Assembly (NCBI GenBank): GCA_028561875.1 | Contig: JAQQTI010000003.1 | Coordinates: 62,001-126,000, forward strand | Origin: Methanomassiliicoccaceae archaeon COG_1 | Lineage (GTDB): Archaea > Thermoplasmatota > Thermoplasmata > Methanomassiliicoccales > Methanomethylophilaceae | DNA length: 64,000 nt | Direction of reading: 5' to 3' | Part shown: one piece after another, positions 1,241 to 57,943 of the stretch | Layout of the letters: each line of letters starts with the position of its first letter | How positions within the stretch are numbered: position 1 is the stretch's first letter | Position numbers and translations under genes: made by a program | Notes under the pieces: model-generated | Told to the model about the DNA's origin: nothing | The model's input: only the letters and a program-made list of their open reading frames with translations | The model's database searches: none

Positions 1241-1645
1241 ATGGCAGATTTCAAAGCTATCGTCAACGACGTGAAGACCGGCAAGTCGTACAACGTTGCC
1301 GTCACAGGCCACCACGCGAACTCCCTGGATGGAAAGAACATCGGGGAGATCGTAGACGGGATTTTCGTAGGTCTCCCCGGATACAAGCTCAAGATCACCG
1401 GCGGCAGCGACAGGAACGGCACCCCCATGAGGGCCGACCTCCCCGGGAAGAAGAGGGGCAGGCTACTCCTCGCCGACGGCCTCGGGTTCCGCGAGAGGGA
1501 GCCCGGGCAGAGGAAGAGGGTCGCCGCCCGCGGATCGGCCATCTCCTCCGAGACGGTCCAGATCAACATGGCAATCACAGAGTACGGCCCCAAGTCCGTC
1601 GAGGACCTCCTGGCGGCCCCCGAAGGTGAGGAGAAGAAAGAATGA
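1241..1645 (+). CDS. rps6e: 30S ribosomal protein S6e
   Basis: 134 residues matching archaeal S6e over its whole length: [17 protein letters not shown] at the start, [25 protein letters not shown] near residue 30, and the basic [19 protein letters not shown] segment. It is a small-subunit protein. The stop TGA overlaps the aIF2-gamma start in an ATGA junction (1642-1645), so translation of the two is probably coupled. This S6e-aIF2-gamma order is known from other archaea. Confidence 0.95.
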
Positions 1646-2880
1646 AGGTCCCCGAGCAGCCCGAGATCAACATCGGGATGATCGGTCACGTCGACCACGG
1701 GAAGACGACCCTCACCAAGGCACTATCCGGCGAATGGACCGACCGCCATTCCGAGGAGGTCAAAAGGGGGATCTCCATCCGCCTCGGGTACGCCGACGTC
1801 GCCTTCTACAAGTGTCCGGACTGCGAGGGCGCGAAGGCGTACTCCACGCAGAGGAAGTGCCCTGGATGCGGAGCGGCCACCGAGTTCCTTCGCGCGGTGT
1901 CCTTCGTCGACGCCCCCGGGCACGAGACCCTTATGGCCACGATGCTGTCGGGTGCCGCCCTCATGAGCGGCGCGCTGCTGCTCGTCGCGGCCAACGAGAG
2001 GTGTCCCCAGCCGCAGACCAGGGAACACCTGATGGCGCTGTCCATAGTCGGCATCGACAGGATCGTCATCGTCCAGAACAAGATCGACATAGTCTCCCGC
2101 GAGAGGGCGCTGGAGAATTACAGGGAGATCAAGGATTTCGTGAGGGGCACCGTCGCCGAGAACGCCCCCATCATCCCCGTCTCCGCCAACCGCGGCGTGA
2201 ACATCGACCTCCTCATCGAGGCGATCGAGAAGGCCATCGTCGAGCCCGCCAAGAGGAACCTCAAGGCCGCCCCCGTCATGCACGTGGCCCGCTCCTTCGA
2301 CATCAACTCCCCCGGCACGGCCCCCAAGGACCTGAGGGGCGGGGTGATCGGCGGCACCCTCCTGCAGGGCAAGCTGAAGGTCGGCGACGAGATCGAGGTC
2401 GCCCCCGGCAGGCGCGTCGTGAACGGAGGCAAGACGACCTACGAGCCCATCACCGCGAAGATCACCTCCCTCGAGGCGGGGGAGAGGAGCGTCAAGGAGG
2501 TCCTGCCCGGGGGGCTCATCGCCCTCGGCACCGAGCTCGACCCGTCGATAACCAAGTCGGACGGGCTCACCGGGAGGGTCGTCGGCAAGCCCGGCTCCAT
2601 GCCGCCCGTGGTCTCCGCGTTCAAGATGAAGATCACATTGCTCGACAGGGTCGTCGGCTCCGCCGCCGACATGCAGGTCGAGGGCATCAAGAGCAACGAG
2701 CCGCTCATGCTGTCCGTGGGGACAGCCACCACCGTGGGAGTCGTCAAGTCCGCCCACGAGGGCTACGCGGAAGTCACCCTCAAGCTGCCAGTGTGCATAC
2801 TCCCGGACCAGAGGGTCGCCATCTCGAGGAGGATCTCCAACAAGTGGAGGCTCATCGGGTACGGCGTGGTCAGCGACCGA
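1642..2880 (+). CDS. eif2g: Translation initiation factor aIF2 subunit gamma, ending at CGA
   Basis: GTPase that delivers initiator tRNA to the 30S subunit. G1 [10 protein letters not shown] is near residue 15, DAPGHE (G3) near 91 and NKID (G4) near 146. A zinc knuckle (CPDC and CPGC) lies between residues 55 and 75. The last family-like residues are [12 protein letters not shown]. The next codon is CGA 2878-2880 where a stop is expected, giving 412 residues, the normal length. No TAA, TAG or TGA follows in frame for another 169 codons, which read as an arginine-rich shadow across the PIN gene. The PIN start lies one base after the CGA. Confidence 0.93.
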
Positions 2881-2881
2881 G

Positions 2882-3238
2882 ATGCAGACCGTCGTGCTCG
2901 ACACGAACGCTTTGCTGATGCCGTTCGAGGTCGGCATCAACCTCGACCTCGCGGTGGGGGAGATCCTCGGCGAGGTCAGGTTCGTGGTCCCCGGCCCGTT
3001 GATCGGGGAGCTCAAGCATTTGGACAACAAGCACGCGAAGGCCGCACTGGCCCTCGCGCGCTCCCGCGAGATCGTGCCGACCGACGCCCGCGGCGACGAC
3101 GCCGTCATCGACATCGCCCTGAAGGAGAACGGGTACATCCTCACGAACGACAAGGCGCTCAGGCGCAGGGCGCGCACGCAACGCATACCTCTGCTCTATC
3201 TCCGTTCGGGGACGCACCTCGTCGAAGAGACGTATCGA
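2882..3238 (+). CDS. PIN-domain nuclease, Fcf1/VapC9-like, ending at CGA
   Basis: Small PIN nuclease of 118 residues. [12 protein letters not shown] at the N-terminus gives the first acidic residue, GELKHLD the second near residue 41, and DDAVIDIA...[12 protein letters not shown] the C-terminal acidic pair near residues 79-99. This arrangement resembles archaeal PIN proteins close to the rRNA-processing Fcf1/Utp24 group. An RNase role is inferred. The gene sits one base behind aIF2-gamma in the S6e operon. CGA 3236-3238 is taken as the stop; a second CGA and a TAG follow within eight codons. Confidence 0.8.
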
Positions 3239-12887: not shown

Positions 12888-13853
12888 ATGGGAAGATATC
12901 CGTTCACAGAATGCATAAACGAATACTTGCCCACTGAAGTGGGCCATCTGTCTGCCGAGACGATCTCTACCAATGGCAGGCGTCTGAGGCAGATTGCCAC
13001 GATCTTCAACCAGCTGAAGGCCGAGGGGAAGGTCAGCACAGACAATCCCCGGAAGATAACCGCCCAGGACATCGACGCGTTCGTCGGATACAGGCGTCAG
13101 ACTGTCAAGGCATCCACCGTCAACAAGGATCTCAGCATCCTGATCAAGATGCTGATGTACTTCGACAACGACGCCGTCCTCAAGTTCAAGATCAAGTATC
13201 CCGCGCATTATCCCAAGCGGTACAAGAAACGCGGAGCTTCGCTGGAAGAGGAGAAGGTCCAGGCGATTTTCGACAGGGCCTCCAAGATCAATGTCGGGAA
13301 TTGGGAGCTCATGGAGGCGTACGGGCTGGTCTGTCTGTCCATAAGCACGGGGTTCAGACCCAAGGAGCTCCGCATGCTCTCGTTCCGCAACGTGAACAAG
13401 ACGGAGCACGGCTATGAGATCCTTGCCGAGCATGTCAAGGGGGAAGGAACATACGGCAACGCCCGTTGGGTCCCCGTCCATCCGGACGGTACTGCGGCCT
13501 TCGAGAAGTATCTCGAGGCCAGGAGGATCCGTCTGGGGAGGGCCGGGAAGTCCGAGGATGCCCTTTTCCCTCCGATCAAGCACAACGGCGGATACATCTC
13601 GTACGGGAGGATCCGCACGCTGAAGAGCATGGTCGAGGACGATCTCGAGATGAAGTTCGACTACAGGAAGTGCAGGCGCACTTTCGGTCAGAGGGCGATC
13701 GACGAGGGGCAGAGCATGCATGATGTTTCCCTGGTCATGGGGCATGTGACCACCGCCACGACTCAGAAGGATTACTGCGACAAGGACGAGCACAACGCGG
13801 CCCGCGACATGCAGAGATTCTGGTCCGGCAAAGGGGCAATAGAGGAGCAGTGA
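12888..13853 (+). CDS. Tyrosine recombinase (integrase) of the element
   Basis: 321 residues. The N-terminal half is a SAM-like core-binding domain (TISTNGRRLRQIATIFNQLK...TVNKDLSILIKML). The catalytic half shows the first arginine in STGFRPKELRML (near 151), the RKCRRTFGQRAIDEG segment with the second arginine (near 265), MGHVTTATT with histidine (near 285) and the nucleophile tyrosine in QKDYCDKDE (near 295). It lies 120 bases from the tRNA-Lys end it is expected to recombine. Stop TGA. No in-frame CGA. It appears intact, so the element may still be able to excise. Confidence 0.9.
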   Translation: MGRYPFTECINEYLPTEVGHLSAETISTNGRRLRQIATIFNQLKAEGKVSTDNPRKITAQDIDAFVGYRRQTVKASTVNKDLSILIKMLMYFDNDAVLKFKIKYPAHYPKRYKKRGASLEEEKVQAIFDRASKINVGNWELMEAYGLVCLSISTGFRPKELRMLSFRNVNKTEHGYEILAEHVKGEGTYGNARWVPVHPDGTAAFEKYLEARRIRLGRAGKSEDALFPPIKHNGGYISYGRIRTLKSMVEDDLEMKFDYRKCRRTFGQRAIDEGQSMHDVSLVMGHVTTATTQKDYCDKDEHNAARDMQRFWSGKGAIEEQ

Positions 13854-13972: not shown

Positions 13973-13992
13973 TGGCGGGCCTGAGGGGATTC
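13973..13992 (-). repeat. Right attachment repeat inside tRNA-Lys
   Basis: Identical to 6443-6462. It covers the CCA end, acceptor strand and part of the T arm, the usual crossover zone for archaeal tRNA integrases. Confidence 0.88.
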
Positions 13993-14049
13993 GAACCCTT
14001 GGCCGTCCGATTAAGAGTCGGACGCTCTACCTAGCTGAGCTACAGGCCC
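13973..14049 (-). tRNA. trnK: tRNA-Lys (anticodon CTT), with encoded CCA
   Basis: On the minus strand the acceptor GGGCCTG pairs with CAGGCCC over 7 bp, followed by discriminator G and a genomic CCA. The D arm GCTC..GAGC, the anticodon stem TCCGA/TCGGA around loop CTCTTAA, and the T arm with GGTTCGAATCC are all present. The anticodon CTT lies at 14013-14015. No intron is visible. Its last 20 bases are the attachment repeat of the integrated element. Confidence 0.95.
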
Positions 14050-14665: not shown

Positions 14666-15430
14666 ATGCTGGAGGTCCATGTTCTGGCCAGCGGCAGCGA
14701 CGGCAACTGCACCGTCGTGAGGCTGGACGACGAGGCCGTGATGATAGACGCCGGCCTCAGCTTCAAGCAGACCCACCGGCTCATGGAGCTCGAGGGCATA
14801 GACGAATCCGCCGTCAAGGCGCTGCTGATCACCCACGAGCACGGCGACCACGTCAAGGGCGCCGGGGCCGTGGCTAGGAAGCTGGGCGTCCCCCTGTACG
14901 CCAACCGCGAGACCTTCACGGCGTTCGACGCGGGGAGGGTGGACTGGCGGGAGTTCAGGATCATGGACTCGTTCAGCCTCTGCGGCATGGAGGTCACCCC
15001 CCTGCCCACCTTCCACGACGCCGTAAACCCCTGCGCCTTCATGCTGAGAGCGGACGGGAGCAGCGTCCTGGTGGCCACCGACACCGGCAAGCTGTCCTTC
15101 CAGTGCGAGAGGGCCCTGGAGGAGGCGGACCTGGCCATCATAGAGGCGAACTACGACAGCCGCATGCTGCGCGACGGCCCCTATCCGGAACCCCTCAAGA
15201 GGAGGATAGCCAGCGATTGCGGCCATATGTGCAACTCGGTCACCGCGCAGGAGATAAGGAAGACCGCCGTGAACGAGAGGAGGCAGATATTCCTCGCCCA
15301 CCTCAGCAAGAACAACAACACCCCGGACATCGCGCGCCAGACCGTGGCCGACATCACCGGGATAAAGCGGTTCAAGATCGACTGCCTGGAGAGGCTGGGC
15401 GACACCCGCACCCTGACGGTCTCGCGGCGA
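14666..15430 (+). CDS. Metallo-beta-lactamase-fold hydrolase (YycJ-like), ending at CGA
   Basis: Metal-dependent hydrolase with LASGSDGNCTVV at the start, the zinc motif THEHGDHVKGA near residue 53, ATDTGKLS near 137 carrying the bridging aspartate, and FLAHLSKNNNT near 212. The family-like sequence ends at LGDTRTLTVSR (254 residues), and the next codon is CGA 15428-15430. No classical stop occurs for another 110 codons, which are an Arg/Gly-rich shadow of the GINS gene on the other strand. Substrate unknown; the family includes phosphodiesterases and nucleases. Confidence 0.85.
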
Positions 15431-17046: not shown

Positions 17047-17649
17047 GTGTTGCGGATGAGAGGCACCTTCGTCGTTCTGGAGGGCATAGACGGCTCGGGC
17101 AAGAGCACGCTCGCGCTGGCGCTCGCGGAGCGTCTCGGGGACGCCGAGGTGACCTCGGAGCCTACCCGGGGGCCGATCGGCGCCGCCCTGCGCAGCGGAG
17201 AGCTCGGGGACCTGCCGCCCGCCGCCGAAGCGCTGCTGTTTGCCGCCGACCGTGCCTTGCACACCGAAGAGATAAACCGCCTCCTCGGCGAGAGGCGGTG
17301 GGTGATATGCGACCGGTACTTCGCGAGCACCGTAGCGTACCAGTCGGCGGCCATGGGCGGGGACTCCGCCGGATGGCTGATCGAGATACAGAGGAATTCC
17401 GTTATGGATCCGGATATGACCATCCTGTTGGACGTCGACCCCCGGATCTCCATGCCGAGGGTCGAGGGCAGGGGGGAGGCGAGGAGCCGCTTCGAGGAGC
17501 CGGGATACCTCTGCGAGGTGAGGAGGCAGTACCTCTCCCTCGCAGAGCGCTACGGGTACCGCGTCATAGACGCCTCGAAGAGCAAGGAGGAGGTCCTGGA
17601 AGAGGCCCTAGCCGCGTTTGGGGAGAAGGGATTGTATGCATCCGAGTGA
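17047..17649 (+). CDS. tmk: Thymidylate kinase
   Basis: About 200 residues. The P-loop FVVLEGIDGSGKSTLA, DR-motif VICDRYFASTVAYQ near residue 95 and a lid segment (RVEGRGEARSRFEEPGYL) are as in dTMP kinases, which make dTDP for DNA synthesis. GTG 17047 is chosen because GGAGG at 17036-17040 is correctly spaced; ATG 17056 (MRGTFVVLEG) is the alternative. Stop TGA. The gene overlaps the coaBC start by 14 bases. Confidence 0.93.
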   Translation: MLRMRGTFVVLEGIDGSGKSTLALALAERLGDAEVTSEPTRGPIGAALRSGELGDLPPAAEALLFAADRALHTEEINRLLGERRWVICDRYFASTVAYQSAAMGGDSAGWLIEIQRNSVMDPDMTILLDVDPRISMPRVEGRGEARSRFEEPGYLCEVRRQYLSLAERYGYRVIDASKSKEEVLEEALAAFGEKGLYASE

Positions 17650-18826
17650 GGAGATTTACTGTGAGAAGAGCAACAAGCTCTACGGGAAGACCATCGTGCT
17701 CGGCATCACGGGCAGCATCGCCGCGGTGAACTGCTTCGCGCTGGTCCGCGAGCTCGTGCGCAACGGCGCGAAGGTGATACCGGCGATGACCGAGGCCGCC
17801 TGCAGGCTGGTGGCACCGGACTCCCTGGAGTTCGCTTCCGGGAACAAGCCGATCACGGGGATCGGCGGGCAGACCGAGCACATCAAGTTCCTCGGCGACC
17901 ATACCGACGCCGACCTGTTCCTCGTGTATCCGGCGACGGCCAACACCATCTCGAAGATGGCGAACGGCATCGCCGACTCGCCGGTGACGGACATGGCCGC
18001 CGTCGCCCTCGGGGGCAGCGTCCCCGTCGCGGTCGCTCCGGCGATGCACGGGTACATGATGGAGAACCCCTCCGTGGCGGAGAACCTACGGAGGCTCGCC
18101 TCGTGGGGCGTGAGCGTCATCGGCCCGCGCATCGAGGGCGATAAGGCGAGGGTCGCCTCGGTCTCGGAGGTGCTCGCGTGGTCGATCAAGCTACTGTCGA
18201 GGGACGACCTCCGCGGCAGGAAGATCCTCGTCATCGGCGGCAGGAGCGAGGAGCCCATCGACTCGATGAGGCTGATCACCAACCGCTCCTCGGGGATGAT
18301 GGCCGTCGCGCTGGTGCAGCGCGCCTTCGAGCGCGGCGCGGACGTGGAGCTGTGGATGGGCGGCGGCAGCGTCGTTCTCCCGGACTACGTCCGGGTGAGG
18401 AGGTACGAGAGCGTCGAGGACCTCGTGGGGATGCTCGATTCCATAGACCACGACGTGGTCATCGTCCCCGCCGCCCTCGCCGACTTCACGCCGGAGAAGG
18501 TCGCGGAGGGCAAGATTCCCAGCGGCAAGGGGCTAAGCCTCAAGCTCAAGCCCGTGCCGAAGGTGCTCCCGCTCATACGCGAGAGGTGCGCGAACGTCAT
18601 CGGCTACAAGGCGGAGTCGAACCTCTCCCGCGGAGACCTTGAGATGAAGGCGCGGGCGAGGCTTAACGAGTACGGCCTTCGCGCGGTGGTCGCCAACGAC
18701 ATCGACTCCGCGGGGAAGACCTCGGCGTCGATGATGCTCGTGACCGAGGATTCGGCGGCGGACATCACCGGGACCAAGCCCGACATCTCCGACTACATCC
18801 TGAACTTCGTCTCCGAGAAGCTCCGA
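17636..18826 (+). CDS. coaBC: CoaBC: phosphopantothenoylcysteine synthetase/decarboxylase, ending at CGA
   Basis: Bifunctional CoA-synthesis enzyme of 396 residues. The flavin-dependent decarboxylase half has GITGSIAAVNCFALVRELVRNGA and PATANTISKMANGIADS, with PAMHGYMMENP (Met-rich substrate clamp). The synthetase half begins at RKILVIGGRSEEPIDSMRLITNRSSGMMAVAL and includes the KLKPVPKVL motif. Family-like sequence ends at LNFVSEKL, followed by CGA 18824-18826, whose A is the first base of the next ATG (CGATG). A TGA lies ten codons later. The arrangement copies the usual TGATG stop-start overlap with C in place of T. Confidence 0.9.
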
Positions 18827-26891: not shown

Positions 26892-29230
26892 TCCAGTTGT
26901 CCGTAGAAGAACGCATGGTCCGCAGGGACGCGCCCTACGACCTCTGCGACGTAACGGTCCGGGGCGCTCCCGACCCCGACCTCACCGCCCTGTCCGAAGC
27001 GCTCGGCCTCGGCCTCTCGCTCGACGAGATGAGGGCCGTTCGCGGGTACTACGAGAAGGAGGACAGGGACGCCACCGACGTCGAACTCCAATCCCTCGGA
27101 CAGGCCTGGAGCGAGCACTGCTGCTACAAGAGCTCGAAGGTCTTCCTCAAGCAGTTCGTGTTCGGCATCGACCGCCCCGACGTACTGTCCCGCGGCGACG
27201 CGGGCGTTATGGCATTCGACGATGACTACGGCTACTGCCTCCGCGTCGAGTCGCACAACCACCCTTCCGCCATCGAGCCCTACGGCGGCGCGGCCACCGG
27301 CATCGGCGGCATAGTCAGGGACGTCATCTGCATGGGTGCCCGGCCCATCGGACTCGCCGATCCGCTGTGCTTCGGGCCGGTCGACACAGGCAGGAGGATA
27401 CCCAAGGGGATAAAGCACCCCCGCTACCTCGCGAGCGGCGTGGTCGCGGGCATCCGCGACTACGGGAACAGGATCGGCGTGCCGACGATCGCCGGCGGCT
27501 TCTTCTTCGACGACTCCTACATCGGGAACTGCCTCGTGAACGTCTGCTGTTTCGGCATCGTGAAGAGGGAGGACCTTCTCAACAACTACGCCTCCGGGCC
27601 GGGGGAGGTCATGATCCTCTTCGGCGGGCGTACCGGCAGGGACGGGATCCACGGGGTGAACTTCGCCTCGAAGGACATCACGTCCACCTCGGAGGACGAT
27701 TCGAGGGGCGCCGTTCAGCTCGGGGACCCGATTACCAAGGAGCCGGTAATCCATGCCTGCACCGAGCTCGCCGAGAGGCACCTCGTAACGGGCATGAAGG
27801 ACCTCGGCGGCGGCGGGCTGAGCTGCGTCGTCGGCGAGATGGCGATAGAGAAGGGCTGCGGCGCGGACGTGGACCTGGAGAAGGTGCCGCTCAAGGAGAG
27901 CGGCCTTGCGCCCTGGGAGATATGGGTGTCGGAATCGCAGGAGCGCATGATGTGCACCTGCCGCCCCGAGAACGTGAACAGGGTTATGGAGATCTTCGAC
28001 CTGTGGGACATAGTCGCCACGCCCGTGGCGAGGACCACGGACACCGGCAGGACCCGCCTGTTCTGGAACGGGGAGAAGATCTTCGACATGGACATCGAGT
28101 TCCTCACCGGCGGGCCGATGTACGAGCGCCCGTTCGAGATGCCAGACGTCTCCTCGAAGAGGAACGAGGCGTTCCCGGACACCCCGGAGCCCGGCGAGGC
28201 CATCCTCGCCATGCTATCCGACCTGAACGTAGCCTCTAAGGAGTGGGCGATCAGGCAGTACGACCACGAGGTCCGCGCCGCCACCGTCATAAAGCCGATG
28301 GTCGGCGGGCTCAACCGCACCGGCCCCGGCGACGCTTCGGTGCTCATGCCCGTGCCCGGCAGGTGGAGGGGGCTCGCCTGCGCCGTCGGGTGCAACCCAT
28401 GGTTCACCGCCGCCGACCCGTACCGGGGCGGGATGGCATCCGTCAACGAGGCCATCCGGAACGTCGTCGCCGTCGGCGCCTACCCCGACGCGCTCACCGA
28501 CTGCCTCAACTTCGGGAACCCCGAGATACCCGGGAGGCTCGGCGAATTCCGTGAGGCGGTGCGCGGCATCGGCGACCTCGCGAGGGAGCTCAACATACCG
28601 ATCCCTTCGGGCAACGTGTCTATGTACAACGAGGCCCCTGGCGGGGAGCACATCCTGCCCACGCCGGTGATCGTCTGCTGCGGCCTCATCGACGACGTCC
28701 GCAGGGCGGTCACCGCCGACTTCAAGAAGGTCGGCTCGCGCATCTATCTCGTCGGCGAGACGAGGGACGAGATGGGGGCCTCTCTCCTGTTCAGGAAGTA
28801 CGGCGGCAAGGGAGGGGACGTGCCATCCACCGACCCGGCCGGGCTGAGGGCGAACTACGAAGCGCTCCTCGAAGCCATGGGTGGCGGGCTCGTGAGGGCC
28901 TGCCACGACTGCTCAGACGGCGGGATGGCCGTCGCCGTGGCGGAGATGTGCATCTCCGGGCAGGTGGGCGCCGAGCTCGACCTGGCGGCGATGGGCGACA
29001 TGCCGGCCGAGGTGAAGCTTTTCTCGGAGAGTGAGTCGAGGTGGGTCGTCGAGGTCGGGGGAGAGGATGCCGAGGCGTTCGAGAGGACCCTCGGCGGGCG
29101 TGCCGTACCGATCGGGATGACGAAGGGGGACTCCCTGATCGTCAGGGGCACGTCCGCGGACGTACCCGTCGAGGAGATGAGGAGAGCTTGGAACGACCCC
29201 CTATGGAAGATCATGGGGGGAGAGCAGTGA
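26888..29230 (+). CDS. purL: Phosphoribosylformylglycinamidine synthase subunit PurL
   Basis: 780-residue ATP-dependent FGAM synthase large subunit. SLGQAWSEHCCYKSSK, the ATP/metal site RVESHNHPSAIEPYGGAATGIGGIVRD near residue 118, GMKDLGGGGLSCVVGEMA near 300 and the second-half VRACHDCSDGGMAVAVAEM are all in place. GTG 26888 overlaps the purS stop. TGA 29228-29230 overlaps the purQ GTG start. In all 780 codons there is no CGA, although arginine is frequent (AGG, CGC and CGG). Confidence 0.95.
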   Translation: MIQLSVEERMVRRDAPYDLCDVTVRGAPDPDLTALSEALGLGLSLDEMRAVRGYYEKEDRDATDVELQSLGQAWSEHCCYKSSKVFLKQFVFGIDRPDVLSRGDAGVMAFDDDYGYCLRVESHNHPSAIEPYGGAATGIGGIVRDVICMGARPIGLADPLCFGPVDTGRRIPKGIKHPRYLASGVVAGIRDYGNRIGVPTIAGGFFFDDSYIGNCLVNVCCFGIVKREDLLNNYASGPGEVMILFGGRTGRDGIHGVNFASKDITSTSEDDSRGAVQLGDPITKEPVIHACTELAERHLVTGMKDLGGGGLSCVVGEMAIEKGCGADVDLEKVPLKESGLAPWEIWVSESQERMMCTCRPENVNRVMEIFDLWDIVATPVARTTDTGRTRLFWNGEKIFDMDIEFLTGGPMYERPFEMPDVSSKRNEAFPDTPEPGEAILAMLSDLNVASKEWAIRQYDHEVRAATVIKPMVGGLNRTGPGDASVLMPVPGRWRGLACAVGCNPWFTAADPYRGGMASVNEAIRNVVAVGAYPDALTDCLNFGNPEIPGRLGEFREAVRGIGDLARELNIPIPSGNVSMYNEAPGGEHILPTPVIVCCGLIDDVRRAVTADFKKVGSRIYLVGETRDEMGASLLFRKYGGKGGDVPSTDPAGLRANYEALLEAMGGGLVRACHDCSDGGMAVAVAEMCISGQVGAELDLAAMGDMPAEVKLFSESESRWVVEVGGEDAEAFERTLGGRAVPIGMTKGDSLIVRGTSADVPVEEMRRAWNDPLWKIMGGEQ

Positions 29231-30045
29231 AGGCTTCTGACGTCAGGGTGTGCGTGGTACGCATCGAGGGCACGAACTGCGAGGGCGAGATGGCGGAGGC
29301 GTTCCGCACGGTCGGGGCGCAGGCCGAGGAGGTGCATCTCAAGCAACTCGAGGGCCGCTGTGCCCCGGAGCTCGGGAGGTCGCTCGAGGATTACGATATT
29401 CTCGCCATCCCCGGCGGGTTCTCCGCCGGCGACTACGTACGTGCGGGAGCTCTCTTCGCGGCGAGGATGAAGGCCTCGTTGAGGTCCGATCTGGTAAGAT
29501 TCGTGGAGAACGGCAACCCCGTGCTCGGCGTGTGCAACGGATTCCAGGTCCTCGTGGAGCTGGGTCTGCTGCCGGCATTCGACAGCACCATGTCCGAAGA
29601 GCCGCAGGCCGCGCTGTACACCAACGACTCCGGCCGTTTCGAGTGCAGGCCCACCGTCCTCCGCAACGACAACAGAGGGAAGTGCGTCTTCGTCTCGGAC
29701 ATCGGGACGGGCGAGGCAATCTACTCTCCGTCCGCCCATGCCGAGGGGAAGTTCATGTGCGACGTCCCGGACTTCCTGGCCAAGCTTGAGGAGCATGACC
29801 AGGTCGTGTTCCGCTACGCCTCGCCAGAGGGCGACAGGGTGCTGTATCCGTGGAACCCAAACGGCTCCCCTTCGAACATCGCCGGCATCTGCAACCCCGC
29901 CGGGAACGTGATGGGCATGATGCCCCATCCCGAGAGGGCGATGACCGCTTACACTGTGGCGGACTGGGCCCGCGGGCATGCGTCCGAGGACGGCGATGGC
30001 AGGAAGATCTTCACCTCCGTCATGAAGTACATGGCGAAGCGCCGA
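29227..30045 (+). CDS. purQ: Phosphoribosylformylglycinamidine synthase subunit PurQ, ending at CGA
   Basis: 272-residue glutaminase subunit that supplies ammonia to PurL. The class I amidotransferase nucleophile is in PVLGVCNGFQVLVELGLLP near residue 102; the histidine and glutamate are in MMPHPERAM near 236. GTG 29227 overlaps the purL TGA. The family-like end MKYMAKR is followed by CGA 30043-30045. No classical stop occurs for 133 codons. The next base starts the CGA (minus strand) of ribK, so the two genes abut exactly at CGATCG. Confidence 0.93.
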
Positions 30046-31905: not shown

Positions 31906-31929
31906 TTGGTGCAGGGCGTCCCAGGTGTG

Positions 31930-32697
31930 ATGGACAACGTCTACTTCGTGGGAACCGCGGGGAGCGGGAAGAGCACCATGGTTGGTGCCTTCAAGGCTTG
32001 GCTTGACGACAACGGCGTCGATGCCGCGACCGTCAACCTCGATCCCGGCGCAGAGAGAATGCCTTACGTTCCGGACATCGACATCCGTGAGTGGATAAGC
32101 CTAGACCGGGTGATGAGCGAGTACGGCCTCGGCCCGAACGGGGCGCAGATCGTCGCCGCCGACCTGATGGCCGTGAACATCGGCAAGGTGCAGGAGGCTC
32201 TCGGGGGATATGGCGCGGACTACGCGCTCATCGACACCCCGGGGCAGCTTGAGCTGTTCGCCTTCCGCGAGTCGTCCGGCATCGTGATCGACGCCCTAGG
32301 CAGGGAGAAAAGCATGCTCGCCTACCTCTCCGACCCGACGCTGTACAAGACCGCCAACGGCTTCGTCTCGGCGATGATCCTCGCCTCTCTCGTGCAGTTC
32401 CGCGCGAACGTACCGATGGTGAACCTGCTCTCGAAGGCGGACACCCTCGCGGAGGATGTTTCCGGCCGCATCCTGGATTGGTACAACAACCCCGACACTC
32501 TATACGGCGACCTCCTAGATGAGGACCGCGATCCGGAATCGGTGATGGGGATGGAGCTCTTTCGCGCCATGGAGGACACCGGCGTGTTCGGTGAGATGAG
32601 GAGGGTCTCCTCGGAGAAGGGCGAGGGGCTCGAGGAGATTTACGGAGCGGTGCAGCAACAGTTCCACGGCGGGGACGATGCGGGCGTCGGTAGCCGA
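31930..32697 (+). CDS. Gpn-type GTPase (XAB1 family), ending at CGA
   Basis: 255 residues. P-loop FVGTAGSGKSTMV near residue 6, the family's Gly-Pro-Asn segment in GLGPNGAQ near 65, G3-like DTPGQLELFAFRESS near 101 and LLSKADTL (G4) near 168 match archaeal Gpn GTPases. They form dimers and in eukaryotes assist RNA polymerase assembly. The end EEIYGAVQQQF...GVGS is followed by CGA 32695-32697; the next classical stop is 51 codons on and would overlap the opposite PAN gene. Confidence 0.87.
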
Positions 32698-34072: not shown

Positions 34073-34600
34073 ATGGAGAGCGCCATGATCTGCGAGATGT
34101 GCGGCGGCGATGTGCCGAAGACGCGCAGGATGACGGTCCAGGGCGCCTACCTCAATCTCTGCGACAAGTGCGCCCGGTTCGGCGAGGGGTACAGGCCCCT
34201 GCCCTCCTCGGACGACCGTCCCGCCGAGGCCTCCAGCAGGGGGGTCATAGACCAGAGGCTGGAGAGACGCGAAAGGCGCATGCAGACCCGCGACATCTAC
34301 GCGGGAGCCGCGGCCGTCGAGCTGATCCCTGGCTACGGGAAGGCCATCCGTCAGGCCAGGGAGGCTAAGGGGCTCTCCATGGACGACTTCGCGAAGTCCA
34401 TCGGCGTGAAGAAGCTCACCCTCAACAAGGTGGAGGCGGGGAACCTCACCCCGGACGACAAGCTCGTGGCAATCCTCGAGAAGGCCCTCGGGATCAAGCT
34501 GAAGGAGGCCGTGCAAAGCGGCGCCCCGGTCGGCGGAGGGCAGAAGAGCCAGGGCATGACCCTCGCCAACTTCGTCAGGGAGGACAAGCGCAAGGGGCGA
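34073..34600 (+). CDS. MBF1-like transcription factor, ending at CGA
   Basis: 175 residues: an N-terminal zinc ribbon MICEMCGGDV...LNLCDKCARFG, a basic linker RLERRERRMQTRD and a cro/C1-type helix-turn-helix GKAIRQAREAKGLSMDDFAKSIGVKKLTLNKVEAG. The tail LANFVREDKRKG is followed by CGA 34598-34600; otherwise the frame would run 131 codons antisense through the DUF2240 gene, which ends three bases away. Archaeal MBF1 proteins bridge TBP to regulators or bind ribosomes. ATG 34085 is an alternative start. Confidence 0.88.
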
Positions 34601-40471: not shown

Positions 40472-40671
40472 GGCGGCATGTGCCCCGGGCCTCCGCCGGG
40501 CGACTAAGCGAACGCTGAGGGACTTCCGGAATCTGAGGCCTTACACCTCACGCAGCGAGGTTTTCCGGACCGGGCAGCGTCCCCCGCTAGATGTTTTCCG
40601 CCCCGGATGCCTGGTTTTGGACCCAAACATTATATTGGGCGCGCGAAATCCCTCGGGAAAGGGTCGCGGCC

Positions 40672-41832
40672 ATGGTAAACACATCGAAGAGGCTCCAGAA
40701 GATCCCGGCGTCGGGGACGATAGCCATTTCCAATCTCGTCAGCGAGATGAAGGGCCAGGGGATAGATGTCGTCTCCTTCTCCATGGGGGAGCCGGATTTC
40801 GTCACGCCCGAGAACGTCATCACCGCGGCCCAGAAGTCGCTCGGCAGCGGGTTCACCCACTACACCCCGAGCATGGGGGTGTCTGCGCTCAGGGAGGCCA
40901 TCGCTAACACCGTGAGGAGGGACAACGGCATCGTCGCCTCATCTTACAACGTCCTCGTGACTCCCGCCAAGCAGGCCATATTCATGACCGCGCTGGCATA
41001 CCTCGACTCCTGCGACGAGGTCATCCTCCCCGACCCGGGGTGGGTGACCTACGAGGCGGTCATAAAGCTCTGCGGCGCCAAGCCGGTGTACGTGCCACTC
41101 TACTTCGACGAGGGCTTCGTCCTCAGCCCCGAGAGGGTGGAGGCCGCCATCACCCCCAATACGAAGATGATCATCCTCAACACCCCGGCGAACCCCACCG
41201 GATGCGTCCTTCCCGAGGACGCGGTCCGCGCCATCGCCGAGATTGCCGAGAAGCACGACCTCCTCGTGCTGGCTGACGAGATCTACGAGAAAGTCATCTA
41301 CTCCGGGAAGCACTTCTCCATCGCGTCGATCCCAGGCATGATGGACCGCACCATCACCGTATCCGGCCTCTCCAAAACCTATGCAATGACCGGCTGGAGG
41401 ATCGGATGGGCAATCAGCTCCCGCGAGAACATACAGAACATCAACAAGCTGCAGACCCACTCGATCTCCTGCTGCACCTCCTTCGCGCAGATGGGCGCCG
41501 TCGAGGCCCTGACCGGCACGCAGGTGCCCATGGCGCACATGGTCGAGGAGTTCAGGAGAAGGCGCGACCTCGCCCTCGACCTCATCGAGGAGATTCCCGG
41601 CATGGAGTGCCAGAGGCCGGAGGGGGCGTTCTATCTCTTCCCCAGGTACGACGCTGATATGCACTCCGAGGACCTCGCCACGAAGCTGCTGAGGGAGGCC
41701 CACGTCGCCGTCACCCCGGGCGCCGCCTTCGGCCCCAACGGCGAGGGGTTCTTCAGGATTTCGTACGCCACCTCCGAGGACCAGATCCGCGAGGGCCTCG
41801 GTCGCATAAAAGCGTTCATGCAGAGCCTCCGA
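40672..41832 (+). CDS. Class I aspartate-type aminotransferase, ending at CGA
   Basis: 386 residues, PLP-dependent fold-type I. NTSKRLQKIPASGTIAISNLVSEMKGQGIDVVSFSMGEPDF opens the domain; NTPANPTGCVLP is near 170, VLADEIYEKVIYSG near 200 and the PLP-lysine motif SGLSKTYAMTGWRIGWAI near 230. The likely substrates are aspartate or related amino acids. The last helix GLGRIKAFMQSL is followed by CGA 41830-41832. Reading on for 19 codons would cover the promoter (CTCTTATAAA, 41881-41890) of the next gene. A TTATATTGG box lies before the start at about 40626-40634. Confidence 0.9.
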
Positions 41833-44625: not shown

Positions 44626-45012
44626 ATGATCTACCTCAATGACCTCACGACCGCCATAGAGAACAGCATCAACGGTGGCAACGGTCTCGACCGCGAGCAG
44701 GCTTACGACCTCGCCCAGCACGTGCTCAACTTCTTCGGCTACGACGACAGGATAATCGATAACGTGCTGGAGCCCGAGGATCGCGACGCGTTCTACATGC
44801 TCGAGGACGCCCGCATCCTCTTCACCGAGAGGGAGGAGATAACCCTGTACGACGGCCGCGAGTGGAGGATCCACTACTGGTTGTTTGACAAGGACAGGAT
44901 CGCCGAGCTTATGGAGTTGGCCTCGCCGATGAAGGAGCAGCGCGACGTCTCCGATTTCGATTACGACAGCCTCCCGTCCGACGCGTGGGACCGCGCCCCC
45001 AGGACCGAATGA
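44626..45012 (+). CDS. DUF6015-like small protein
   Basis: 128 residues, acidic: LTTAIENSINGGNGLDREQAYDLAQHVLNFFGYDDRIIDNVLEPEDRDAFYMLEDARILFTEREEITLYDGREWRIHYW. It resembles a small family found in Thermoplasmata with no assigned function. The TGA stop overlaps the helicase start as ATGA, which suggests a shared mRNA and possibly a shared role. The family name is from memory, hence moderate confidence. Confidence 0.7.
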   Translation: MIYLNDLTTAIENSINGGNGLDREQAYDLAQHVLNFFGYDDRIIDNVLEPEDRDAFYMLEDARILFTEREEITLYDGREWRIHYWLFDKDRIAELMELASPMKEQRDVSDFDYDSLPSDAWDRAPRTE

Positions 45013-46886
45013 CGGACCTCCTTCCCTATGATGCGCGCCCCGGGCAGAGGGAGTTCGTCGATCTCGTCCGCGACTGCGCCCGCTCGGGGAGGAGCGCCGT
45101 CATCGAATCGGGCACCGGCACGGGAAAGACCGTCCTCTCCCTCACCGGCACCCTCGAGGCCTCCGGCCCTAAGCGGGTAATCTTCCTAACCCGCACCAAA
45201 TCGCAGCAGCGGCAGGTCTCGCTCGAGGCGCGTGCCATCGGCTCCCGCGCGGACATACTCTGCGTAGCGGTCCAGGGGCGCGGGCCGGCTACCTGTCCGA
45301 TGATGGCCGAGGACCGCGACCTGGCGGATGGCACTTCCGAGGAGATGTCGAAGCTATGCTCCGAGCTGAAGAACGGGAGGGGCGCCGCCGGCTCCTGCCG
45401 GTATCACGAGGCCCTACGCTCCTCGGAAATCAAGGCGGTGCTCGCCTACGCGCGCACCGCCCATCCCGATCCAGAGGAGTTCCGCGCGTTCTGCCTTTCC
45501 CGGGGCGTCTGTCCCTACGAGGCGGCGAAGAGGATTCTCCCCTACGCCAGCGTAGTAAGCGCCCCCTATGCTTTCTACTTCATACCGCCGATCCGCGCCC
45601 ACCTCATGCAGTGGATGGGCGTCTCCGAGAGGGACTGCGTCGTCATAGTCGACGAGGCGCATAACCTCCCTTCGTACCTCCGTGACATGCAAACCTGCCG
45701 CGTCACCCGCCGCTTCCTTGAGCTTGCCGAGAGGGAGGCGGAGTCCAACGGGGATCCGGAGATCGGCGAGGGGTTGGCGGCGAGCGACATGGTGCGCCTG
45801 ATACGCGACATCCTCGAAGACGCCGTGCGGGAGTACCTGAGGAGAGACAACGACATGATTCCTGCCAGCTACCTGAGCGAGGAGATGATGTGTCGGCTCG
45901 GCATGGGCACGCAGGCGATACGCGGATGCGTCGGCCGTCTCCTGGAGGCCGGAGACTCCATCGCCGAGGCGCGCAAGGCGAAGCGCAAGCTCCCTCGCTC
46001 CCGCCTCGCATCGTTGGCGAGGTTCGTCATAGGGTGGTGGTCCTGCGAGGAGTCCTCGCACGTCTTCCTGGTCTCCGGCGGGGACAATCCCGCCCTCGAG
46101 GCCTACTGCCTCGACCCTGAAGACGCAGCCGAGCCCCTGCGCCTGTGCAGGTCCTCGGTGAGCATCTCGGGCACCCTCGCCCCGCTCGGGCCCTACTCCC
46201 GCGAGCTCGGCCTCTACGACCCAGAGATGAGGGTGTTCCCGTCGCCGTTCCCGAGGGCGAATCTGCGGACGTTGTACGTCGCTGACGTCTCCACGAAGTT
46301 CAGCGAGATAAACAGCGAGGACGGCACCTTCGAGAGGCTGAGGGAACACATCGTCAACATCGTCACCGCCACCGACCGCAGCGCGGCGGTGTTCTTCCCG
46401 TCGTATGCGGTGATGGACCGCTTCGTCGCTGACGGGCTGGTGGATGACCTGGGCAGGGACGTGTACTGCGAGAGAAGGGGCATGCCGCAGTCTGAGCTCA
46501 TGGACCAGGTGACGGACTTCCGCGACAGCGGGGGCAGCGCGCTCTTCGCCGTTACCGGCGGGAGGGTCAGCGAGGGTCTGGACTTCCCCGGGAAGGAGCT
46601 GGAGGTCGCGGTCATAGTCGGCATACCTTATTCCAGGCCGTCGGCGAAGCAGGACGCCCTCGTGGGCTACTGTCAGAACCGTTTCGGGAAGGGGTGGGAG
46701 TATGCCGTGAAGGTCCCCGCCGTGCGGAAGATGAGGCAGGCGATCGGCCGCCTGATCAGGTCGGAGAAGGATCGCGGGGTGGCCGTCATCCTCGACCGCC
46801 GTGCCGCCGGGATCGAGGGAATCGATGCGGAGCTCACCGATGACCCCGTGCGCGAGGTCAGGGAGTTCTTCCGGGGGTTCCCCCGA
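45009..46886 (+). CDS. XPD/Rad3-like DNA helicase, ending at CGA
   Basis: 625 residues, superfamily 2 helicase. Walker A is AVIESGTGTGKTVLSL near 35, the Walker B DEAH box VVIVDEAHNLPSYL near 217, and the C-terminal VTGGRVSEGLDFPGKELEVAVIVGIPYSRP and RQAIGRLIRSEKDRGVAVILDRR motifs close the motor. Four cysteines between 90 and 180 could hold an iron-sulphur cluster as in XPD. The end VREVREFFRGFP is followed by CGA 46884-46886, directly before the TTTATATAT promoter of the next gene. Without CGA as stop, helicase and the next protein would be one 785-codon fusion carrying a promoter inside. Confidence 0.88.
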
Positions 46887-46922: not shown

Positions 46923-47207
46923 ATGGCAATCCAAGTGGACGATGACGTCAGGGATATGATCCTTCGCGAGAAGCAGGACTACCGCGTGTGCACAGCATGC
47001 ATGGGTCCCGCCCTCGTGCCGATCAGCGTCAAGTGCCCGAAAGAGTCCGACATAAGGATCCCCATCGGGGAAAACTCCCTTTACATATCAGGTACCCAGG
47101 CGCCGTTCATGGACAGGGTTACCATGGACATGCTGTACGACGAGGACGAGATTGACTCCTGCCCGGCGTTCTACGTCTACTCAGACCGCAGGCGCGGCTT
47201 CCGCCGA
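46923..47207 (+). CDS. 94-residue conserved-looking protein, ending at CGA
   Basis: Starts MAIQVDDDVRDMILREKQDY, contains two close cysteines (VCTACMGPALVP) and two more (KCPKESD, DSCPAF), and ends YSDRRRGFR before CGA 47205-47207. The next classical stop lies 53 codons on, through the opposite ThiI-like gene, which ends three bases away. The family is unknown to me; the cysteines suggest a metal site. Its own strong TATA box supports it as a separate gene. Confidence 0.75.
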
Positions 47208-54434: not shown

Positions 54435-54746
54435 ATGAGTTTGTTCTGCCCCCAATGCGGTTCGATGATGTTCCCGAAGGGAGGGAAATACGTCTGCATG
54501 AGCGCCGAATGCGGGTTCTCCCAGTCCCAGGACGGCAAAGCGCAGGTCTTCACTACCGACTCCATGGAGAAGGAGACTTCCGTCGTCTCCGAGGACGATG
54601 CCACCCTGCCGAAGACCCGCATCCTGTGCCCAAAGTGCGGGCACACCGAGGCGTATTTCGTCATCAGGCAGACCCGCTCCGCGGATGAGCCCGAGACGAG
54701 GTTCTACCGCTGTTGCAAATGTAGCCACACCTGGCGCGAATACCGA
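54435..54746 (+). CDS. tfs: Transcription factor S (TFIIS-like), ending at CGA
   Basis: 103 residues, the normal size. The N-terminal ribbon FCPQCGSMMFPKGGKYVCMSAECG and the C-terminal TFIIS zinc ribbon ILCPKCGHTEAYFVIRQTRSADEPETRFYRCCKCSHTWREY hold the RSADEPET loop that reaches the polymerase active site (acidic pair Asp-Glu). The family nearly always ends within a residue or two of WREY. Here the following codon is CGA 54744-54746, and the frame then continues for 61 unrelated codons into PCNA. This is the cleanest single case for CGA as a stop. CTTTAATAG box at 54391-54399. Confidence 0.93.
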
Positions 54747-54768
54747 ACAGCCTCCCGTGGTGATTCCT

Positions 54769-55506
54769 ATGTTCAAGGCAGAGATAAAATCGGATGTTCT
54801 GAAGGGCATCGTCTACATCGTTTCTACGCTAGTGGACGAGGTCAAGTTCTCGATTCGCCCCGACTCCGTCGGCCTCAAGGCGATCGACCCCGCCCATGTG
54901 GCAATGATCGAGGTCAACGTTTCCTCTAAGGCGTTCGTCTCCTACTCCGCCGACGAGTCCGAGATCGGCCTCGACCTAGATAAGGTGAAGTCCGTCCTCA
55001 AGCTCGCCGGTCCGAGCGACAACATCATCATGGAGCACGACCCGGACCAGGGCAGGCTGACCTTCAGGATTGGCAACATCACCCGCAGCATGAGCCTCGT
55101 GGACACCGGCAGCATGAGCGACCCCAAGGTCCCCGCCATCGATCTCTCCGCCGAGGTGCAGGTGGGCATCGACCAGCTGCAGAGGGGGATCCGCGCCGCC
55201 GAGTCCATCTCCGATCACATCTCGCTCGCGGCCGACCCCGAGGGGTTCGAGCTCTCCTGCAAGGGCGACACCGATTCCGCCACTCTGAGAATCCCCGCCT
55301 CCGATTTGATGGGACTGAAGTCCGAGGGCAGGGCGTTCTCGCTGTACCCTCTGGATTACTTTTCCAACATCGTAAAGGTGATTCCCGCCGGGACGGCAAT
55401 CGCGATACAGCTCGACAACGATTACCCCGTGAAGCTCCTGTTCAACCTCGCCGAGGGCGAGGCCAGTTTCGTCTACTTCCTCGCGCCGAGGATTGAAAGC
55501 GACTGA
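54769..55506 (+). CDS. pcn: PCNA sliding clamp
   Basis: 245 residues. FKAEIKSDVLKGIVYIVSTLVDEVKFSIRPDSVGLKAIDPAHVAMIEVNVSSKAF covers the first domain, RIGNITRSMSLVDTGSMSDPKVPAIDL the linker, and FELSCKGDTDSATLRIP with VKLLFNLAEGEASFVYFLAPRIESD the second. It encircles DNA as a trimer. ATG 54769 lies 22 bases behind the TFS CGA. Stop TGA. Confidence 0.95.
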   Translation: MFKAEIKSDVLKGIVYIVSTLVDEVKFSIRPDSVGLKAIDPAHVAMIEVNVSSKAFVSYSADESEIGLDLDKVKSVLKLAGPSDNIIMEHDPDQGRLTFRIGNITRSMSLVDTGSMSDPKVPAIDLSAEVQVGIDQLQRGIRAAESISDHISLAADPEGFELSCKGDTDSATLRIPASDLMGLKSEGRAFSLYPLDYFSNIVKVIPAGTAIAIQLDNDYPVKLLFNLAEGEASFVYFLAPRIESD

Positions 55507-56343: not shown

Positions 56344-57293
56344 CCGAGAGGCTTGCGCAGCGCGACTACTTCGGCAAGGCGCTCGTGAGGCTCGGGGAGA
56401 CCAATCCTGACGTCGTAGTCCTCGACGCAGACCTAGCCGGATCCACCAAGACCGGCGACTTCCAGAAGGCGTTCCCGGAGCGTTTCGTGGAGGCGGGCAT
56501 CGCCGAGGCCGACATGGTCGGCGTGGCCGCCGGACTCGCCGCTTCCGGGAAGATATCATTCCTCTCGTCGTTCGGGGTGTTCGCCAGCGGCAGATGCTGG
56601 GAGCAGATCAGGACGGCCGTGGCCTACCCCTCCCTGAATGTCAGGATTGTCGCCACCCACTGCGGGCTGTCGGTGGGTCCGGACGGCGCCACCCACCAGG
56701 CCCTGGAGGACATCGCCGTCATGCGTGTCCTCCCGAACATGACCGTGCTCGTCCCCGCCGACGCTCATGAGACGTACGCGGCGACACTCGCCCTCGCCGA
56801 GCGCGAGGGGCCGGCGTACATGAGAATGGGGCGCTCGAAGTTCCCCGTCATAATGCCGGAGGACGCGGATTTCAGGATCGGGGAGGCGTCCGTGCTCCGC
56901 GACGGCACAGACGTCTCCATCATGGCGTGTGGGCAGATGGTGCAGACCTCCCTTGAGGCCGCCGACCTGCTTGCTGCAGAAGGCATATCCGCCGAGGTGA
57001 TCAGCATGTCCACCGTCAAGCCGATAGACGCAGACGCCATCGTCGCTACCGCGAGGAAGACCGGTGCCGTCGTCACCGCCGAGGAGCACAGCATCATCGG
57101 CGGGCTCGGGGCCGCGGTGGCGGAGGTGCTCTGCACCAGCTACCCGGTGCCCATCAAAAGGGTCGGCACCATGGACACCTTCGGCGAGTCCGGGGAGGCG
57201 GACGAGCTCCTTGTCAAGTACGGACTCGATGCCGCCACCATCGTCGCCAGGGCGAAGCAGTCGATGTACCAAAGGGACGTGATCAGAGAATGA
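56340..57293 (+). CDS. Transketolase, C-terminal subunit
   Basis: 317 residues: DVVVLDADLAGSTKTGDFQKAFPERFVEAGIAEADMVGVAAGLAASGKISFLSSFGVFA near 22 and the histidine-rich IVATHCGLSVGPDGATHQALEDIAVMRVLPNM near 105. The C-terminal half (VSIMACGQMVQTSLEAADLL...AEEHSIIGGLGAAVAEVL) completes the dimer interface. GTG 56340 overlaps the first subunit. TGA overlaps the transaldolase ATG. Confidence 0.92.
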   Translation: MTERLAQRDYFGKALVRLGETNPDVVVLDADLAGSTKTGDFQKAFPERFVEAGIAEADMVGVAAGLAASGKISFLSSFGVFASGRCWEQIRTAVAYPSLNVRIVATHCGLSVGPDGATHQALEDIAVMRVLPNMTVLVPADAHETYAATLALAEREGPAYMRMGRSKFPVIMPEDADFRIGEASVLRDGTDVSIMACGQMVQTSLEAADLLAAEGISAEVISMSTVKPIDADAIVATARKTGAVVTAEEHSIIGGLGAAVAEVLCTSYPVPIKRVGTMDTFGESGEADELLVKYGLDAATIVARAKQSMYQRDVIRE

Positions 57294-57943
57294 AGATCTT
57301 CATAGACACCGCGAATCTGGACATGATCAGGGAAATCAACAGCTGGGGGATCCTCGACGGAGTCACCACCAACCCAAGCCTCGTGGCGAAGGAGGGCGCC
57401 GACACACCCACCCGCGTGAAAGAAATCGCGCGGATTCTCGACGACAGGCCGGTCTCTGCGGAATGCATGTCCATCGAGGCGGAGGGAATGATTGAGGAGG
57501 GCAGGAGGCTCCATGGCATAGCCGACAACGTCAACATCAAGCTGCCGATGTGCGTCGAGTCCCTCAAGGCCACCAAGGTGCTCTCCTCCGAGGGCATCGA
57601 CGTGAACATGACCCTCATCTTCTCTCCGCTGCAGGCCCTCATGGCCGCTAAAGCGGGCGCGAGATACGTGTCCCCATTCATCGGCAGGCTCGACGACATC
57701 GGAACCTACGGCACCAGCATGCTCAACGAGACCGTGGACATCATCCACGGCTACGGCTTCCGCACCGAAGTCATCGCCGCCAGCATCAGGCATCCTACCC
57801 ACGTGCTTGAGTCCGCGGAGATGGGTTGCGACATCGCGACCATCCCCTACAGCGTCCTCAAGATGATGGTTTCTCATCCGAAGACGGAAGAGGGCATCGC
57901 CAAGTTCAAGGCCGACTACGAGAAGGTCAACGGGCCACAGCGA
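57290..57943 (+). CDS. Transaldolase (MipB/TalC type), ending at CGA
   Basis: 217 residues, the short transaldolase form. MKIFIDTANLDMIREINSWGILDGVTTNPSLVAKEG opens it; NVNIKLPMCVESLKATKVLS carries the Schiff-base lysine near 85, and YVSPFIGRLDDIG and VIAASIRHPTHVLESAEMGCDIATIPYSVLKMM follow. The end KFKADYEKVNGPQ is followed by CGA 57941-57943. A second CGA (57950-57952) overlaps the next ATG as CGATG, and TAG is two codons later. With transketolase it makes pentose and erythrose phosphates. Confidence 0.9.

Follow-up and report, generated by a model that had tools for sequence, protein, structure and literature searches.

Does the gene of transcription factor S (TFS) in this archaeon end at a CGA codon, or does its frame encode the longer protein predicted by the standard code? 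In the window, i.e., the whole 64,000-nucleotide stretch of DNA that was analyzed and whose numbering is used throughout, the TFS frame starts at 54435 and its 3′ end reads TGG CGC GAA TAC (WREY, 54732–54743) followed by CGA, as pointed out in a preliminary description of this locus. Under the standard code the ORF comprises 164 amino acids and is open to a stop ending at 54929, thus containing 103 residues, the CGA and 60 additional codons; the description, which counted 61, was right in stating that the frame remains open and overlaps PCNA, and its calculation that with CGA as stop TFS would have 103 residues, with 22 bases separating it from PCNA, is exact. The features of the locus are:

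54435–54746, plus strand: transcription factor S gene, 103 codons and CGA stop (Zn_ribbon_TFIIS at residues 64–101; 29 orthologue ends)
54744–54746, plus strand: CGA stop codon of TFS (TGA or TAA at the same codon in 28 of 29 orthologues)
54747–54929, plus strand: non-coding read-through tail, outside the protein (missing in all relatives; overlaps PCNA in another frame)
54769–55506, plus strand: PCNA (sliding clamp), ending with TGA (ATG 22 bases past the CGA)

The TFS family had been said to end at or near WREY, and the comparison of the relatives at the position of the CGA bears this out. When TFS was searched for in 121 genomes belonging to the same family, order or class, 115 matches were obtained, and in all 29 of the best relatives whose DNA was fetched (65–75% identical) the gene ends with TGA or TAA, 28 times at the exact codon of the CGA and once a codon later; CGA occupies this position in the present genome only. 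TGA also ends TFS in two further congeners (SIG2- and ISO4-H5-like) that were read separately. A tail of the read-through type, i.e., the natural extension past WREY that was sought as a refutation, is found in none of the 29 relatives. As to the protein itself, the C-terminal TFIIS zinc ribbon (Pfam PF01096, residues 64–101, E 3e-20) lies near WREY and the N-terminal RPB9 ribbon is also recognized, while no Pfam domain is recognized 3′ of the CGA in the TFS frame.

Chance does not account for the CGA at the end of TFS, since this codon acts as a terminator throughout the genome. The sample consisted of 20 stretches (396 kb) that together with the 64-kb window represent about 460 kb of 1.51 Mb. 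Genes were called by our own codon-usage score with CGA given zero weight; the calls, albeit partial, were preferred because a gene choice based on homology only admitted antisense ORFs and inflated CGA in GC-rich genomes. With the standard code, the CGA counts in successive tenths of gene length are 43, 8, 3, 1, 4, 2, 2, 9, 26 and 94, unlike other rare codons, which are distributed along the gene; the accumulation in the first tenth presumably reflects over-long 5′ extensions. With CGA counted among the stops, the 366 called genes end with TGA (215), CGA (116, i.e., 32%), TAA (29) and TAG (6), and the CGA-ended share ranges from 26 to 41% of the genes on contigs C1–C5; by proportion, the whole genome would contain some 380 CGA-ended genes.

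The coding score, calculated over the 30 codons before and after, changes from +0.27 to −0.37 at CGA and from +0.29 to −0.44 at TGA, and CGA is alone among all sense codons of this genome in having a negative mean downstream coding score. The next standard stop lies at a median distance of 31 codons past CGA vs 27 past TGA, which argues that the tails are under no selection for length. Furthermore, the offset between CGA and the C-termini of homologues has a median of 0 and is within 10 residues in 14 of the 17 testable genes, the corresponding figure for TGA-ended genes being 38 of 44. Examples in the window are aIF2 gamma, transaldolase, the XPD-like helicase, the CoaBC-like protein, the aminotransferase and the glutamine amidotransferase. 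A second in-frame stop occurs within six codons past CGA in 37% of the genes vs 15–17% in the other frames (past TGA, 24% vs 17–22%), a distribution fitting a somewhat leaky stop endowed with back-ups. The use of CGA drops slightly in the most codon-biased genes (0.29 vs 0.32–0.36). The back-up stops past CGA are mostly further CGAs.

Within the window, the following genes in addition to TFS end with CGA, and no inner CGA is present in any of them:

1642–2880, plus strand: aIF2 gamma, 412 codons (eIF2_C domain to residue 410; four-stop gene call)
2882–3238, plus strand: 118-codon gene (gene call)
14666–15430, plus strand: metallo-beta-lactamase-fold gene
17618–18826, plus strand: CoaBC-like gene (Flavoprotein + DFP), 402 codons
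25278–26336, minus strand: Fic/DOC-family gene
29203–30045, plus strand: GATase_5 glutamine amidotransferase gene, 280 codons (domain 14–277)
31906–32697, plus strand: ATP_bind_1 (GPN-type) GTPase, 263 codons (domain 14–253)
34073–34600, plus strand: HTH transcription regulator, 175 codons
36139–36948, plus strand: 269-codon gene (gene call)
40591–41832, plus strand: class I/II aminotransferase, 413 codons (domain 59–406)
45009–46886, plus strand: XPD-like helicase, 625 codons (homologue C-terminus offset +1)
46923–47207, plus strand: 94-codon gene (homologue C-terminus offset +2)
57290–57943, plus strand: transaldolase, 217 codons (8 homologues, C-terminus offset 0.5; domain 3–213)

The window also contains, between 6558 and 14049, an island of lower GC content (42% at 8–12 kb) with two DNA methylase genes, a phage-type integrase (12888–13853) and a tRNA-Lys(CTT) at 13973–14049; the island is likely an integrated element, and in-frame CGA is missing from its genes too.

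What goes beyond the preliminary description is that this code is common to the whole genus and to a second clade, and that the gene of the release factor keeps a single in-frame CGA. Concerning the first point, congeners were sampled in 40 stretches from eleven genus members, and none of the 3129 interior Arg codons counted in nine genomes is CGA, the 1,461,105-bp genome contributing 1178 of them, the 1,937,883-bp genome 562 and UBA78 430. The exclusion is specific for the reading frame, CGA occurring inside genes 0, 286 and 1700 times in frames 0, 1 and 2 of the 1,461,105-bp congener vs 43, 94 and 598 times in an outgroup; avoidance of the motif as such is rejected as the cause of the CGA loss, given its abundance out of frame. 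Genes ending with CGA amount to 16% in 1R26, 7% in G010 and 0–5% in a few other genus members, and CGA is found at the C-terminus of genes having about 30–57 homologues in 1R26, G010 and UBA78. The same CGA behavior characterizes a second Methanomethylophilaceae clade (L063–L091 in part, L113 and L120), where genes having some 30–57 homologues have CGA at their C-terminus in L063, L065, L079, L080, L083, L085 and L120. In the genomes of BRNA1 and ISO4-H5 size (the two complete genomes of the genus are presumably BRNA1 and ISO4-H5) CGA is mainly missing rather than used as a stop. In Methanoplasma-like genomes the rare interior CGAs are flanked by coding signal on both sides, so that in these organisms CGA is still a sense codon; in the Methanomassiliicoccaceae it is freely used, and in the outgroups it is an ordinary codon, flat along the genes. 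The main Arg codon of UBA593 is CGG, as opposed to AGG/CGC in its congeners.

When the inner CGAs having a two-sided coding signal were listed, one besides that of aRF1, in 1R26, was found to have spanning homologues. It is rejected as a sense codon, being located at the junction between cytidylate kinase and Cbf5/TruB; the remaining candidates lack spanning homologues and resemble fused neighbors or wrong frames. The standard-code ORF in question (L222:1485-3011) fuses the two 1R26 proteins, which the CGA at codon 180 parts, and the fusion is likely a misannotation in public records.

The second point concerns aRF1, which has one copy in this genome (G000:C1:331780-333015); no second aRF1 gene was found in it, the other match being weak and fitting Pelota. 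The NIKS and YxCxxxF motifs are intact, and an obvious change of either is rejected. The substitutions common to the CGA-stop clades, A119 (human T122, beside YxCxxxF), F129 and A56, correlate imperfectly with the code, A119 and F129 being present also in some lineages where CGA is sense. No other gene has a conserved in-frame CGA; that of aRF1 is codon 25, the Arg of RGRGTELIS, which aligns to human eRF1 just ahead of the GTS motif. In 14 of 14 genomes of the genus aRF1 contains exactly one CGA, always at this site (numbered 24 in two), in the context TAY or TTC, CGA, GGM; the other aRF1s of the genus are 71–82% identical to this one, and CGA is otherwise missing from the genes of those members. 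Likewise, in the second clade aRF1 contains a single CGA, located at codon 78 (75–78 depending on length), whereas in UBA328, which is the sister of the genus, residue 25 is Lys and the only CGA is codon 11. In the aRF1 tree the three clades form a polytomy, compatible with either one origin followed by loss or two origins.

Since the aRF1 CGA is kept at lineage-specific sites and purged elsewhere, it is best read as negative feedback, and we infer a control resembling that of bacterial prfB (RF2), in which an in-frame stop close to the beginning of the gene is passed by a programmed frameshift (PMC12421855). In both cases a release-factor gene would carry, near its start, a codon at which its own product terminates, with a negative feedback that for aRF1 is a prediction. 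The aRF1 frame is unbroken across the CGA and has no programmed +1 frameshift; thus, unlike prfB, which relies on frameshifting, the archaeal factor would use read-through of CGA by a tRNA. This CGA is probably a self-regulating switch.

A tRNA suitable for such a read-through exists. Indeed, all 14 genus members possess a well-folded tRNA-Arg(UCG) (at L033:12160-12235 in this genome), so that its absence is rejected as the cause of the CGA change, and the loss of the cognate tRNA, usual although not essential in a sense-to-stop change, has not occurred. The tRNA would permit the reading of the aRF1 CGA as Arg, and may also read CGG, for which it is possibly kept; being intact, it would on the other hand compete with termination. 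Its discriminator base (position 73) is U in most CGA-stop genus members and G in SIG2, Horse_feces5 and several outlying species, whereas in this genome the Arg tRNAs with anticodons GCG and CCG have G73; U73 could weaken the charging of tRNA-Arg(UCG).

As judged from the genomes compared, it is very probable that CGA, an arginine codon in almost all organisms, has become a stop, via aRF1, in this archaeon, in its genus and in the second Methanomethylophilaceae clade. The interpretation of CGA as a stop codon, put forward in the preliminary description, is supported by the orthologue stops, the collapse of the coding signal, the homologue C-termini, the frame-specific exclusion, the outgroups and the even spread across five contigs; at the level of sequence, these comparisons show that CGA is shut out of gene interiors and replaces TGA at gene ends, where coding ends. 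Mechanistically, the only aRF1, whose core motifs are preserved, would accept C as well as U before GA and release the peptide at CGA, while tRNA-Arg(UCG) would read the CGA of the aRF1 mRNA mainly when aRF1 is scarce, in which case the aRF1 gene would regulate itself. The route may have been one in which CGA grew rare and nearly vanished from coding sequences, was then captured as a stop and finally spread at gene ends by the build-up of TGA-to-CGA transitions, a process that would have gone furthest in this genome. That CGA is a fourth stop in a cellular genome, ending about one third of the genes and meaning Arg only in aRF1, with an aRF1–tRNA-Arg(UCG) feedback, is regarded as likely. Three findings count against the change of CGA from arginine to stop: no single residue change of aRF1 tracks the code perfectly, the intact tRNA-Arg(UCG) would compete with termination, and this genome alone makes common use of CGA as a stop, 1R26 and G010 doing so less.

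Other explanations must account for the same data. C-to-U RNA editing of gene-end CGA, with termination occurring at an ordinary UGA, has the appeal that a single base change would generate the commonest stop; it is nevertheless very unlikely, since about a third of all genes would have to be edited with no shared flanking motif seen (the bases at +4 and −1 are mixed), the genus-wide loss of in-frame CGA, with thousands of out-of-frame CGAs left in place, would have to be added, and the retention of CGA in aRF1 only would remain unexplained. Little credence can be given also to CGA being an unassigned or “hungry” codon at which ribosomes stall and are freed, without true termination, by a Pelota/ABCE1-type rescue: its disuse in gene interiors and the U73 of tRNA-Arg(UCG) in most of the genus, as opposed to G73 in the Arg tRNAs with GCG and CCG, with possibly poor charging, would agree with this, but the UCG tRNA is intact and conserved, a third of the genes, including the essential aIF2 gamma, end at CGA, and the conserved CGA of the release-factor gene implicates the release factor itself. 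It is hardly credible that CGA is still arginine and that stop-loss mutations have produced neutral C-terminal tails; notwithstanding the presence of the tRNA and the open frame past CGA, the codon is missing from gene interiors in frame only, the tails have no coding signal and the length expected without selection, the next gene would be overrun in 75% of the close-packed cases and the event would concern about one gene in three. An assembly, sequencing or gene-calling artefact, conceivable for a draft genome of six contigs, 86% complete, analyzed with home-made gene calls, deserves next to no weight because CGA ends genes on five contigs, the phenomenon recurs, in frame only, in separate assemblies as well as in genomes of one contig, and the positive and negative controls behave.

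Sense-to-stop changes have been described as rare and mitochondrial, e.g., UCA and UCG in sphaeroplealean algae and UUR in Pycnococcus, and were there fitted to codon disappearance and release-factor change (PMC6821328). The change proposed here is likewise from sense to stop, but unlike those cases, which concern small organelle genomes and the bacterial-type mtRF1a, it involves a whole archaeal genome, an eRF1-type factor and an Arg codon one first-base step away from UGA whose cognate tRNA is still present. Rare Arg CGN codons are known to gain new meanings, albeit from sense to sense, CGA and CGG being reassigned to Trp in Absconditabacteria and CGG to Gln or Trp in Firmicutes according to Codetta; this largest prokaryotic code screen, which found an unexpected amino acid for none of the archaeal sense codons and left 218 of them as “?”, was unable to detect sense-to-stop changes and would have missed a CGA stop because it reports only amino-acid meanings or else “?” (PMC8629427). 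In the open-access literature searched, which covers few subscription papers and preprints, CGA was not encountered as a stop, and neither was any passage from sense to stop in bacteria, archaea or nuclear genomes.

If the interpretation is true, an archaeal clade with a fourth stop means that the specificity of a release factor can widen in a cellular genome, and standard annotation misreads about a third of the gene ends of this one. The graded stages seen among the relatives (rare sense, absent, rare stop, common stop) would make codon capture directly observable, and the CGA of aRF1 offers a ready test of the feedback.

Non-standard decoding is already known in the same order, the Methanomassiliicoccales, where TAG is decoded as pyrrolysine, a change that is from stop to sense and concerns an unrelated codon (PMC4153887). 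A tRNA-Pyl(CUA) is present also in this genome (L043:3380-3450), in which TAG may be recoded too.
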